Below, piece by piece: positions 16,271 to 51,301 of a stretch of DNA of 64,000 nucleotides. Every line of letters starts with the position of its first letter. Positions within the stretch are counted from its first letter, which is position 1. A program made the position numbers and the translations under genes. The notes under the pieces were generated by a model. That model worked only from the letters and a program-made list of their open reading frames with translations. It was not told the DNA's origin and ran no database searches. Source of the stretch: Thermoanaerobaculia bacterium (GTDB lineage: Bacteria; Acidobacteriota; Thermoanaerobaculia; Thermoanaerobaculales; Sulfomarinibacteraceae). Location of the stretch: NCBI GenBank assembly GCA_027061805.1, contig JAMOWA010000059.1:62001-126000 (forward strand), written 5' to 3'.

Positions 16271-18207
16271 GTACCGGCCAGCGGCCTCTCAGGAGATCGC
16301 AGCTCATCGTGCCCTTCGGTGTCGGTGCGCTCGTGGACTTTCCAGGGCCTGTCACCCTCATCCACGCGGGCCTCGATGCCTGGCCCGGTCCGGGGCCGGA
16401 AAGTAGAACGGAGTTCGAGATCCGCGACGACCGGAGGCTCCTCAGGCGCCTCGGCGTCCACCTTCTCTATCAGCCACCGGACTACCGTCCCCGGAGCCAC
16501 CACGGGGCCAACCGCAGCGATCCGAATCTCGAGATCAGGATCCCGTTTCTCCGCTTCCCTCTCTGGCATGTCTGTCCCAGCTGCGGGAGGATGTACCGGG
16601 CTGCCCTTCATCACCGCGCGGCTCCCATCTGCGAGGGTCCCCTCTCCACCGGAACCCGCCGGGGTGACAGTCACAGGAGGACTGTCACGATCCAGGTCCG
16701 TTTCGTCGCTGCCTGCAGCAGGGGACATCTCCAGGACTTCCCCTGGTGGGAGTGGGCTCTCCAGGGAACGGAACTCACCAGGGATGGCCTGCGTCTCAGG
16801 ATGCACTCGACCGGAACAGCCTCTCTTGCGGGGGTCACCATCATCTGCGAGAGGGACACGGATGACGGCAGAATCGAGGTGGTTGCCAGACGGTCCCTCG
16901 CCGGTGCGTTTTCACCCCTGGATTCCGGGGACTCCTCCCTGTCCAGACTCGGGATCACGTGCAGCGGCCACAACCCGGCCCTCGCCGTACCGTCTTCGAC
17001 CAGACCCGCTCCAGGTTGTGGTGAGGTGCTTCATCCCGTTCTCAAGGGTAGCTCCAGCCTCTACTTTCCAAAGGTCGTGAGTTCCATCTTCATACCGGTG
17101 GAGGAACGTGTTCTCTCCGATGATCTGCGGACTCTCCTTGAAGACGGTACCTTCCGGAGCAGGGTCCTTCACCTCATGGAGGCACTGGATCGCGAGAGCG
17201 TCTCCCCGCTCATCGAGAGCCTCATCGGCGAACACCTTCCCAGATCCAGGATCACCGCCTCGGACGTCATCGATGCCATCATCGACCAGGGTGTCATCCC
17301 ATCCGGTGTGGAGATCGAGCCCGACGACCCTGGTGAGGTCCATTACAGGTATCAGGAGTACCGCGTTCTCGCGACGCCCGAACCATCCTCCTTCGGTGAC
17401 GATCTGCTCGTCCGGCCTCGAGGAATACATGAATATGATTCTTCTCTGCGCGACCTTCTCAGCCACGTCGCCCTCCTCCCGAAGCTCCGGGAAACTCGTG
17501 CCTTCGTGGGTTTCTCCCGGCTCTTTCCCGAGGACGGACTCGATCACAGGGAGCGCTGGAACCTCATCTCTCGAAAGAGACTGAACTGGCTGCCAGGCGT
17601 CGTCGTCAGAGGTGAGGGGATATTTCTTGTCTTCAATGAAGATCTGATATCCCTGTGGAAAGAACAGGGTGGCTCCACTCTTGAATCCCGGGTCTTGCGA
17701 CTCCAGTCGAGCCTTGACAGGCTCCGTGCCGACAGGCATCAGGAAACCGTACAGATCACGCCTCGATTCGTTCTCCTGCACACCTTCTCTCATCTCCTCA
17801 TCAACCAGCTCGTCTATGAATGTGGCTATGGGTCCGCCTCCCTCAGGGAAAGAATCTACTCCTCTGATGATCCCGACGCTCCGATGGCAGGCATCCTCAT
17901 CTACACGGCAGCCGGGGATTCGGAAGGAACCCTGGGAGGGCTTGTCAGGATGGGACAGCCCGGACGACTCGAATCCGTCGTACGAAAGGCCATCGAGAAG
18001 GCCAGATGGTGCTCGAACGATCCTGTCTGCATCGAGAGCCTGGGGCAGGGCCCCGGCAACTGCAACCTTGCAGCATGCCACGCATGTGCCCTGCTGCCAG
18101 AGACCTCCTGTGAGGAGCAGAACAGGATTCTCGATCGGGGAGTGATCATCGGGACCCTTCAGGATCCCGAGCTGGGTTTCTTTTCTCGAGGCATCTCAGA
18201 GCCGTAG
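16267..18207 (+). CDS. drmB: DISARM protein DrmB (DUF1998)
   Basis: Predicted 646-residue DUF1998 protein starting at GTG 16267, overlapping the drmA stop (GTGA). The N-terminus RRSQLIVPFGVGALVDFPG is the usual DrmB opening. CPSC near residue 101 and the C-terminal cysteines (CSNDPVC, CNLAACHACALLPETSC) suggest zinc sites. The DUF1998 core is LHTFSHLLINQLVYECGYG and MAGILIYTAAGDSEGTLGGL. In characterised DISARM systems DrmB binds DrmA and forms the DNA-sensing complex. It is the last gene of the island operon; a hairpin follows 26 nt after the stop. Confidence 0.9.
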   Translation: MSTGQRPLRRSQLIVPFGVGALVDFPGPVTLIHAGLDAWPGPGPESRTEFEIRDDRRLLRRLGVHLLYQPPDYRPRSHHGANRSDPNLEIRIPFLRFPLWHVCPSCGRMYRAALHHRAAPICEGPLSTGTRRGDSHRRTVTIQVRFVAACSRGHLQDFPWWEWALQGTELTRDGLRLRMHSTGTASLAGVTIICERDTDDGRIEVVARRSLAGAFSPLDSGDSSLSRLGITCSGHNPALAVPSSTRPAPGCGEVLHPVLKGSSSLYFPKVVSSIFIPVEERVLSDDLRTLLEDGTFRSRVLHLMEALDRESVSPLIESLIGEHLPRSRITASDVIDAIIDQGVIPSGVEIEPDDPGEVHYRYQEYRVLATPEPSSFGDDLLVRPRGIHEYDSSLRDLLSHVALLPKLRETRAFVGFSRLFPEDGLDHRERWNLISRKRLNWLPGVVVRGEGIFLVFNEDLISLWKEQGGSTLESRVLRLQSSLDRLRADRHQETVQITPRFVLLHTFSHLLINQLVYECGYGSASLRERIYSSDDPDAPMAGILIYTAAGDSEGTLGGLVRMGQPGRLESVVRKAIEKARWCSNDPVCIESLGQGPGNCNLAACHACALLPETSCEEQNRILDRGVIIGTLQDPELGFFSRGISEP

Positions 18208-30045: not shown

Positions 30046-30955
30046 ACGGAGGGTCGTCGAGGCCATCATGGCCCGCGTCAACGACAAGATCATCACGGTG
30101 ACGGACTTCCGGAAACGGCTCCGGCAGGACCTCTCCCAGATCCCGAGGCAGCTCTCATCCGAGGAGATCCGGAGCTTCGCCCACAGGATCTTCGACGACA
30201 TGGTCAACGAGCTGGTCCTCATGGAGCGTGCCAAGGAGAAGAAGATCGAGGTGACCAGGGAGGACGTGGACCGGGCCATCGAGGGGCTCAGGAAGCAGAA
30301 CAACCTCACCGATGACGACGCGTTCAAGGAGGCCCTGGCCAGTGCGGGGCTGACTGAGGCCGTGATCCGGGAGCGCTACCGCCGCAACATGCTGCTCCAG
30401 CGGGTGGTCCAGTCCGAGATGACGGCCACGGAGATCACGGCCCAGGAGCTGCTCGACGAGTACAACGCCAGCAAGGAGAAGTACAGGACCCCGGAGAAGG
30501 TGCACCTCGAACAGGTCTTCTTCCCGGTGGCCGAGGACGCCAAGGACCGGGAGGCGGTCCTCGGCCGGGCCAGGGGCCTCGTGGAGCGGGTCCGGAAGGG
30601 TGCCGACTTCAAGGCCGAGGCCACCCTGGCCGGCCTGGAGGTCCAGGACCTGGGCGAGATTCCCGTGTCCGACCTCCGTGACGAGATCAAGGACGCCCTC
30701 CAGGGACTCGAGGAGGGGGGAATCACGGACGTGATCTCCACCGGAGGGGGGTTCCAGGTCATCCGCCTCGTTGCGCGGATCCCGGCGGGGTACCAGCCCT
30801 TCGAGGAGGTGAAGGAGCAGATCCGTCGGGGGCTCTCGGAGAAGCGGTACCGGGAGCAGTCGGAGGGACTGGTCAAGAAGCTCCGGGAGGACTACCTGGT
30901 GGAGACGCACCCCGAGATGGTGGACCAGGTGCTGGAAGGCACGATCGGTGAGTGA
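29978..30955 (+). CDS. SurA-like periplasmic chaperone/PPIase
   Basis: Predicted 325-residue exported protein. The signal peptide is MLRRMVMLAVLMGMLTVPGTAG. The SurA-type N-domain (EAIMARVNDKIITVTDFRKRL, FDDMVNELVLMERAKEKKI) precedes a degenerate parvulin domain (KVHLEQVFFPV ... GGGFQVIRLVARIPAG). ATG 29978 is chosen because GGAGGAG lies 5 nt upstream; ATG 29963 is in frame. It likely guides outer-membrane proteins such as PilQ and the TonB receptor. It forms an operon with the preceding parvulin and, through an overlapping GTG, with the YhaM-like gene. Confidence 0.85.
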   Translation: MLRRMVMLAVLMGMLTVPGTAGERRVVEAIMARVNDKIITVTDFRKRLRQDLSQIPRQLSSEEIRSFAHRIFDDMVNELVLMERAKEKKIEVTREDVDRAIEGLRKQNNLTDDDAFKEALASAGLTEAVIRERYRRNMLLQRVVQSEMTATEITAQELLDEYNASKEKYRTPEKVHLEQVFFPVAEDAKDREAVLGRARGLVERVRKGADFKAEATLAGLEVQDLGEIPVSDLRDEIKDALQGLEEGGITDVISTGGGFQVIRLVARIPAGYQPFEEVKEQIRRGLSEKRYREQSEGLVKKLREDYLVETHPEMVDQVLEGTIGE

Positions 30956-31913
30956 GGCGCGACGCTGGATCCGTGACCTCTCACCGGGCACGGACGTGGA
31001 GGAGACCTACGTGGTGCGCTCCCTGGACGTGCGGCAGCGGCGTGGAGGGGGCAACTACCTGGCGCTCACCCTCGCCGACCGGACGGGCCAGGTCGCCGGG
31101 CTCGTGTGGGAGGACGTGGATCGGCTGGCGAAGATCCTGAAGCCGGGATCCGTGGTCCGGGTCCGGGGTCAGGTCCAGCGGTACAACCAGCGGCTCCAGA
31201 TCGTCATCCGCTCTGCCCGGGTGGTCCCGCCGGAGGAGGTGGACGAGTCTCTCTTCGTGCGGTCCTCGTCGGTGGACCCCGAGCGGCTCTGGGCCCGCCT
31301 CATGGAGCTGGTGGAGGGGGTGGAGGACGAGCGGCTCCGGCAGCTCCTCTTCCGGATCTTCGCCGATCCCGAGGTGGAGCAGCGGTTCCGGGTGGCCCCG
31401 GCGGCACGGAGCATGCACCACGCCTACCGGTCGGGCCTCCTGGAGCACACGGTGTCCATGGCCACGGCGGCGCGGATGCTCGCCGGACACTACGGGCTCG
31501 ACGGGAGCCTCGTGGTGGCGGGTTCACTCCTCCACGACCTGGGGAAGATCTGGGAGCTCGAGATCGGCGCCGGCATCGAGTACACGGACGACGGCCGCCT
31601 CCTGGGTCACCTCCCCCTGGAGGTCCTCTGGGTGGACCGGCGGATCTCCGAGATGGAGGACTTCCCCGCGGAGACGCGGCGCAACCTCCTCCACATCCTG
31701 CTGGCCCATCACGGCGAGTACGCCTACGGCTCGCCCCGCCGTCCCAAGACGCCGGAGGCCCTCCTCGTCCACATGGTGGACAACCTGGACGCCAAGGTGG
31801 CGGGCATGCTGGACGCCATCCATTCCGGTGGGGACACGGGCGAGGCGTGGACCGCCTACGTGCCCATGCTGGAGCGGTACGTCTACCGCCGGCGCCCCGA
31901 CGAGGAGGGGTGA
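30948..31913 (+). CDS. YhaM-like 3'-5' exoribonuclease (OB fold + HD)
   Basis: Predicted 321-residue protein. An N-terminal OB-fold nucleic-acid-binding domain (YLALTLADRTGQVAGLVW ... VVRVRGQVQRYNQRLQI) is followed by an HD hydrolase domain with metal ligands in HHAYRSGLLEHTVSMA, GSLLHDLGKIWEL and ILLAHHGEYAYGSP, and a C-terminal HMVDNLDAKV. This arrangement is that of YhaM/CbfI, which trims RNA and DNA 3' ends. The GTG start overlaps the SurA-like stop. It converges with the selenoprotein gene, 1 nt away. Confidence 0.88.
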   Translation: MSEARRWIRDLSPGTDVEETYVVRSLDVRQRRGGGNYLALTLADRTGQVAGLVWEDVDRLAKILKPGSVVRVRGQVQRYNQRLQIVIRSARVVPPEEVDESLFVRSSSVDPERLWARLMELVEGVEDERLRQLLFRIFADPEVEQRFRVAPAARSMHHAYRSGLLEHTVSMATAARMLAGHYGLDGSLVVAGSLLHDLGKIWELEIGAGIEYTDDGRLLGHLPLEVLWVDRRISEMEDFPAETRRNLLHILLAHHGEYAYGSPRRPKTPEALLVHMVDNLDAKVAGMLDAIHSGGDTGEAWTAYVPMLERYVYRRRPDEEG

Positions 31914-31914
31914 G

Positions 31915-32142
31915 TCAGCCCGTCATCTCCCGGATGAGGCGGACCACCTCGCCGGGATCGGGGAACCGACCCGTCTGTCCCTTGGAGAACACGAGACGCC
32001 CGTCCACCACCACGTCGAAGACACCCCGTGCGCCCTTGACCAGCTCCGCACGGACCCCGAGCTCGCGCTCGATCTCGGCCGCCACACTGGCGGCCCGGGG
32101 CCTGTAGTTTCACACCACGCAGTACTCGATGGAGATGTCCAT
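31915..32142 (-). CDS. SelW-like (Rdx family) selenoprotein with in-frame UGA
   Basis: Reading through a TGA at 32112-32110 gives a 75-residue protein beginning MDISIEYCVVU. This is the CxxU redox motif of the SelW/SelT/Rdx family, followed by YRPRAASVAAEIE, a central VKGARGVFDVVVDGR and a C-terminal FSKGQTGRFPDPGEVV. All match a thioredoxin-like Rdx fold of normal length. A 7-bp stem with AGTGT loop begins 15 nt after the UGA (32095-32077), as in bacterial SECIS elements. GAGGGAGG precedes the ATG. Standard gene finding would stop at residue 10 and lose the gene. The redox partner is unknown; sel genes are not in the window. Confidence 0.88.
32077..32095 (-). promoter_or_regulatory. SECIS-like hairpin
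   Basis: Perfect 7-bp stem GGCCGCC/GGCGGCC with a 5-nt loop AGTGT, located 15-33 nt after the UGA of the SelW-like gene. Its position and apical G/U fit the SelB-binding bacterial SECIS. Confidence 0.75.
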
Positions 32143-32307
32143 CGTTGCCTCCCTCGGGCGCTCCCAGGTCCGCGGGATGCACCGTGTCTCGCCTCCTAGT
32201 GTATCGTGCCCCTGTGGAGAGATACCGGAGGGACGTTCCGGCGCGGCGGACGGGATGGCTCCCCAACGCGGGGGCTTTCCGCTCCGTACTGGAGACGAGG
32301 AGAGCCT

Positions 32308-32940
32308 GTGGTGGACGTGTGCCTGACAGCGATCCAGGGAGGGACGGCCGGCGGAGGCGCCGTGGACGAGCGTGAGGTCGTCGAACGGGCCCGCCGCGGG
32401 GACGAGGCCATGTTCGCCCGTCTCGTGGAACGGCACTCCCGCTCCCTGCATCGCGTGGTGGCCCGGATGCTGGGTGACGACGAGGAAGCGTGGGACGTGG
32501 TCCAGATGGCCTGGCTCAGGGCCTGGCAGCGGCTGGGCCGCTACGACGACCGCTGGAGGTTCTCCACGTGGATCCACAGGATCGCGACGAACCTGGCCAT
32601 CGACGTGCTGCGGGCCCGATCCAGCCGGGAGCGGGCTCACACCACGGGCGGTGCCGTGTGGCTCCGGCCCACGCCCACGGGCGGGCGTCCCGGGGACCTT
32701 GTGGAAGAGAAGGACGTGGAGCGGATCCTGGGAGACCTGGTCCGCGATCTGAGTCCGCAGCAGCGGGCCGCCTTCATCCTCCGCGAGGTGGAGGGCCTGG
32801 ACACCGCCGAGGTGGCCGAGATCCTGGGGTGCTCGCCGGTCACCGTGCGGAACCACGTGTTCCAGGCCAGGCGGGCCTTGCGAAAGGCCATGGCAGAGCG
32901 CTACCCGGAGTACGTTCCCGGTGGCGAGAGGGGGAGATGA
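32308..32940 (+). CDS. ECF-type RNA polymerase sigma factor
   Basis: Predicted 210-residue sigma-70 family factor. Region 2 is REVVERARRGDEAMFARLVERH through DDEEAWDVVQMAWLRAW and FSTWIHRIATNLAIDVLR. Region 4 is LSPQQRAAFILREVEGLDTAE and EILGCSPVTVRNHVFQARRALRK. The GTG at 32308 has AGGAGAG 3 nt upstream; GTG 32362 (VDEREVVE) is a plausible shorter start that begins exactly at region 2. The stop overlaps the anti-sigma start (ATGA). It is divergent from the selenoprotein gene. As the first gene before the pilus cluster it may direct pilus transcription. Confidence 0.9.
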   Translation: MVDVCLTAIQGGTAGGGAVDEREVVERARRGDEAMFARLVERHSRSLHRVVARMLGDDEEAWDVVQMAWLRAWQRLGRYDDRWRFSTWIHRIATNLAIDVLRARSSRERAHTTGGAVWLRPTPTGGRPGDLVEEKDVERILGDLVRDLSPQQRAAFILREVEGLDTAEVAEILGCSPVTVRNHVFQARRALRKAMAERYPEYVPGGERGR

Positions 32941-46283: not shown

Positions 46284-46400
46284 CCCCCACGCGGCCTGCG
46301 CATGGCGGGCCTCCGGAACGTGCTCTCGTCCGGAACCTCGCAGCGGCAGCGCCATCCACGTCGGCCTCCCCTTGACCCGTTCGCCCGGCTGGCCTAGGCT

Positions 46401-46622
46401 CGCGTTCAACGGGACGGTGCAAGGGAAGCCGGTGCGAGACCGGCGCGGCCCCCGCCACTGTGACCGGGGACGGACCGTTCACGGGGAGACCCAGCCACTG
46501 GTCGGCGCGATCCCGAGGGGTTGACCGGCCGGGAAGGCGAACGGATCCGGCTGCCACGGAGGGACACCTCCGCGGCGCATCCGGAAGCCAGGAGACCTGC
46601 CGTTCCGAAAAGAAACGGGAGG
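46401..46622 (+). promoter_or_regulatory. Cobalamin riboswitch with SD-sequestering hairpin
   Basis: The aptamer contains AGGGAAGCCGGTGCGAGACC (46422-46441), GCCCCCGCCACTGTGA (46447-46462), GGGAAGGC (46531-46538) and the B12 box GCATCCGGAAGCCAGGAGAC (46577-46596). Immediately after, CCTGCCGTT (46596-46604) can pair with AACGGGAGG (46614-46622), which contains the Shine-Dalgarno of the receptor gene. That suggests translational repression when cobalamin is bound. TAGGCT (46395-46400) is a possible -10. Confidence 0.93.
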
Positions 46623-51190: not shown

Positions 51191-51301
51191 ACGCCATCCT
51201 CCGAGGGTCCTGGTTGTCCAAGAATACCACTCCGGCCACCGGCGGGCGGCGTTTGGCACCTGTCCCCGGGCACCCCGGGGACACTCCTGCAACGGCCTCA
51301 T

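Follow-up and report, generated by a model that had tools for sequence, protein, structure and literature searches.

A putative SelW-like selenoprotein gene with an in-frame UGA and a conserved SECIS-like hairpin in a Thermoanaerobaculia genome

An Rdx-family frame interrupted by UGA

The stretch of DNA analysed here (64,000 nucleotides, hereafter the window) carries a short reading frame that is complete only when translated through a UGA codon, which raises the question of whether this codon reflects a damaged or misread gene, or specifies selenocysteine (Sec). A first-pass annotation had proposed a SelW-like frame through an in-frame UGA at 31915–32142; the frame is present, on the minus strand (no strand had been given), with an ATG at 32142–32140, a stop TGA at 31917–31915, and 75 residues including the putative Sec11. 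The in-frame UGA (32110–32112, minus strand) falls at the second redox residue of a CxxU motif (C8-V-V-U11), and a Shine-Dalgarno-like GGGAGG, read from the sequence, lies at 32148–32153 (minus strand), 5 nt upstream of the ATG. With TGA translated as U, the product reads MDISIEYCVVUNYRPRAASVAAEIERELGVRAELVKGARGVFDVVVDGRLVFSKGQTGRFPDPGEVVRLIREMTG, followed by the TGA stop; the peptide quoted previously was in the correct frame but had skipped N12, the residue after the UGA. It had also been suggested that a gene caller would discard the gene. Stop-based calling would truncate it, but might instead keep a 56-residue open reading frame (32085–31915); the probable selenoprotein was recovered by reading of the sequence alone.

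A profile search of the window's genome returned an Rdx match running through one TGA (E 1e-16 genome-wide), and the translated protein scores above the cut-offs of Pfam PF10262 (Rdx; 70.7 bits, cut-off 22.6), TIGR02174 (61.4 bits, cut-off 34.2) and NCBIfam NF041051 ('SelT/SelW/SelH family (seleno)protein'; 93.6 bits, cut-off 88), which places it in the Rdx/SelW-like family. An AlphaFold model built from 25 homologues (mean pLDDT 97) positions C8 and U11 between the first strand (residues 3–8) and the first helix (residues 14–28), consistent with a thioredoxin-like fold bearing the CxxU motif at the β1–α1 turn. In a Foldseek comparison with the PDB, the best matches are all SelW-related, with TM-scores of ~0.9 (0.90 to 2fa8), whilst lower matches include MIEN1, mouse SelW and thioredoxins. 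Sec11 aligns with the second Cys of the CxxC motif in two SelW-related proteins of solved structure, 2fa8 and 3dex, such that the UGA stands opposite a Cys of homologues. The earlier description of a complete Rdx-family protein with a CxxU motif thus agrees both with the family profiles and with the confidently predicted SelW fold.

The gene is flanked by a convergent gene for an OB-fold and HD domain protein (30948–31913, plus strand) and a divergent gene for an ECF-type sigma factor (32206–32940, plus strand), both assigned by Pfam and both outside the system. These neighbours are kept only in the closest relatives, and hence no functional link to selW can be drawn from them. A search for phage homologues found none.

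Conservation of the UGA among relatives

The window is part of a contig of a draft assembly, and a single stop inside a short gene could mean that an ordinary SelW gene of the Cys type has suffered a nonsense mutation or been miscalled at one base. Among 148 related genomes, drawn from the same family, order and class, 130 contain an Rdx match, and an in-frame TGA is found wherever the match extends across the site; the three matches lacking an in-frame stop are partial and start past the Sec position (at profile positions 15, 42 and 39). When individual loci were fetched, the exact site was found to read YCxxU or equivalent in 93 of 97 relatives. The remaining four are partial or were not recognised; the two of these that were inspected do not cover the Sec site, one (L078) having a non-homologous 5′ part and the other (L074) ending at a contig edge. 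The segment following the UGA, on whose conservation the first-pass annotation had staked its reading, is kept in about 130 relatives, and an alignment to SelW family members, also proposed there, pairs Sec11 with the Cys noted above.

Named homologues spanning at least six phyla have a TGA at the residue corresponding to Sec11, and YCxxU or its equivalent is found in MAGs labelled Acidobacteriota/Thermoanaerobaculia, Planctomycetota, Myxococcota, Gemmatimonadetes, Acidimicrobiia, KSB1, Caldithrix, Neomarinimicrobiota and Gammaproteobacteria, among others. Judging by the nearest named homologues, the organism itself most likely belongs to the class Thermoanaerobaculia (Acidobacteriota). No Cys form of SelW was seen in the 148 related genomes or in these named homologues, which fits the report that, in organisms using Sec, Cys homologues of SelW-like proteins are very few or absent (PMC1794560). 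Such conservation across independent assemblies refutes a pseudogene or sequencing error as the origin of the TGA, to which we assign a negligible probability.

A SECIS-like hairpin downstream of the UGA

Starting 15 nt after the UGA, a perfect 7-bp stem encloses a 5-nt loop (GGCCGCC-AGUGU-GGCGGCC; 32077–32095, minus strand), exactly as the first-pass annotation had described it; the hairpin spans +15 to +33, and its loop begins 22 nt past the UGA. Its location just downstream of the UGA and its small loop with a G near the 5′ side are features by which bacterial selenoprotein genes are recognised. As a single sequence, this hairpin is weak evidence (the whole-region fold gives z = -1.0, and 7 bp at the site are reached by about 5–6% of synonymous redraws of the gene's own sequence), and the claim is carried by comparative evidence. 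An Rfam search of the window returned no SECIS family, and only a cobalamin riboswitch (46398–46618, plus strand; 72 bits) and two tRNAs.

The gene could be real and its conserved hairpin a consequence of codon bias in an Ala-Ala-Gly/Ser-Leu-Ala-Ala segment rather than a SECIS, given that GC-rich Ala codons pair easily and that about 6% of redraws of the gene's own sequence attain the 7-bp stem. The family as a whole was examined using 72 non-actinobacterial sequences and redraws in which synonymous codons were drawn according to the usage of the same genes. The mean stem with a 5-nt loop at +22 is 5.6 bp, against 1.8 ± 0.26 in the redraws, a separation of about 14 SD; no register other than +22 has a strong stem (the next best reaches 3.2), and the mean is still 5.5 in 50 non-redundant sequences below 85% identity. 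At this register the stem is no longer than 4 bp in 11 of the 72 core relatives. Compensatory changes are evident at +18/+30, where C-G, G-U, G-C, U-G, U-A and A-U pairs all occur. The loops of relatives are mostly GGUCU, AGUUU or AGUCU, with GGUCU the commonest, and their codons are not chosen at random: GGT is used for 21 of 24 Gly (about 20% at other positions in these genes; Fisher p 2.5e-11) and AGT for 23 of 23 Ser (about 6% elsewhere; Fisher p 3.7e-22), p-values that ignore shared ancestry and so overstate independence.

Sixteen Acidimicrobiia-type sequences (L077, L079, L085, L086, L092, L093, L095, L096, L097, L100, L102, L106, L109, L111, L114 and L115) have an equivalent hairpin with the loop at +18, 4 nt nearer to the UGA, a mean stem of 5.7 against 2.4 ± 0.39 in redraws, and CGUGN-type loops. 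A shift of 4 nt is not a multiple of three, and this argues against a codon-bias origin. Taken with the redraw control, the loop codons and the compensatory pairs, it leads us to reject that origin, which we consider extremely improbable. To judge from the aligned sequences, the hairpin is conserved across relatives in position, pairing and loop, far beyond chance, in keeping with its earlier designation as a SECIS-type element.

Sec machinery encoded in the genome

The assembly to which the window belongs (3.1 Mb in 68 contigs, 97% complete) encodes SelA (476 bits), SelD (372 bits), SelB (334.6 bits, with a C-terminal winged-helix domain, on the window's own contig) and tRNA-Sec (78.3 bits). 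ARAGORN assigned the anticodon tca to the tRNA-Sec, and returned tRNA-Ser for those next-best tRNA matches on which it was run. All four components to be sought elsewhere in the genome according to the first-pass annotation are thus present, and its proposal that the organism decodes Sec stands.

A frame that is open when TGA is read as X does not alone prove Sec, as the UGA might be decoded as Trp or Cys through a reassigned code or a suppressor. TGA also terminates the SelW-like gene itself and several of its relatives, however, and the presence of SelA, SelB, SelD and tRNA-Sec, together with selection on the hairpin and its loop, likewise opposes decoding as another amino acid. On these grounds code reassignment was rejected, and we rate its likelihood as minimal.

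Among the 148 related genomes, 139 have selA; of the 18 that lack an Rdx match, 17 carry it, which implies that SelW is not the sole reason for keeping Sec. SelD in this family (L018:1228-2517, plus strand, G000:C67) is of the Cys type with an N-terminal Se/S-carrier domain (PF11823, DUF3343). Most relatives of the same family match it over the full fused length; in the other family of the order, SelD is unfused and contains an in-frame TGA. DUF3343 has been proposed as a selenium chaperone (PMC5322559), and the accessible part of that literature on DUF3343 describes no fusion to SelD.

Other candidate selenoproteins

A second probable selenoprotein, Prx/TlpA-like with a UGGC motif, is encoded elsewhere in the genome (L126, G000:C13:40811-41158, minus strand); its TGA lies within FWFPTUGGCRAELP and is followed by its own hairpin, GCGCGG-AGUUG-CCGCGC. 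No formate dehydrogenase alpha homologue in the genome exceeded the cut-off and none had a TGA; the AhpD/CMD genes of the genome also have no TGA. A mechanical scan of the window gave other CxxU/UxxC frames with a hairpin at 17645 (plus strand), 39281 (plus strand), 51300 (minus strand) and 63890 (minus strand). The hairpin at 51300 is a perfect 10-bp structure (TGTCCCCGGG-GTG-CCCGGGGACA) that follows a UGRC frame and is probably unrelated to Sec.

Proposed decoding and function

The frame, family, fold, machinery genes, conserved UGA and conserved SECIS-like hairpin observed here are best explained by a functional SelW-like selenoprotein gene, the UGA of which is almost certainly decoded as Sec via the downstream hairpin. 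By analogy with established Sec decoding in bacteria, a ribosome arriving at the UGA (codon 11) would encounter Sec-tRNA-Sec, made by SerRS, SelA and SelD and carried by SelB; binding of SelB to the hairpin beginning 15 nt downstream would then allow Sec to be inserted in place of termination. The predicted product is thioredoxin-like and 75 residues long, its CxxU redox centre lying where the first strand gives way to the first helix. From knowledge of the SelW family, the Cys-Sec pair most likely switches between reduced and selenenylsulfide states, the protein serving as a small thiol oxidoreductase that exchanges electrons with thioredoxin or glutathione.

We also put forward, tentatively and with some doubt, that SelW in the class must carry Sec, and that the SECIS of the SelW family has two registers, with the loop at +22 in most phyla and at +18 in Acidimicrobiia; SelB and hairpin spacing would then have co-adapted separately in different lineages.

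Comparison with known systems

A literature search found no paper on SelW in the Thermoanaerobaculia class specifically, and Sec decoding with SelW is documented here as a near-universal trait of that class. A recent bacterial predictor put the number of known selenoprotein genes in an acidobacterium at three (PMC12013277). The Cys-type SelW-related structures 2fa8, 3dex, 2ojl, 2oka and 2p0g share the predicted fold of the window protein (TM about 0.9, 24–37% identity), but have CxxC where the window protein has CxxU, and are encoded without a UGA or SECIS.

In the SECIS of E. coli fdhF, a hairpin immediately following the UGA, the loop is GGUCU and the stem has a bulged U. The window hairpin likewise lies shortly after its UGA, and GGUCU is also the commonest loop in relatives, whereas the window stem has no bulged U and its loop is AGUGU.

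SelW-like proteins have long been known as a family of bacterial selenoproteins (PMC1088965, PMC1794560, PMC2398784). Like its other members (PF10262 / TIGR02174 / NF041051), the window gene combines the characteristic size, a thioredoxin-like fold, a CxxU motif with UGA at the second redox residue, and, just downstream, a SECIS whose small apical loop contains a G (PMC1088965, PMC2398784). The gene is a further member of this known family, which is among the most abundant described in bacteria, and general knowledge of selenoproteins is thereby unchanged; nothing basic sets it apart, the one difference being that the Sec form appears universal in the Thermoanaerobaculia class.
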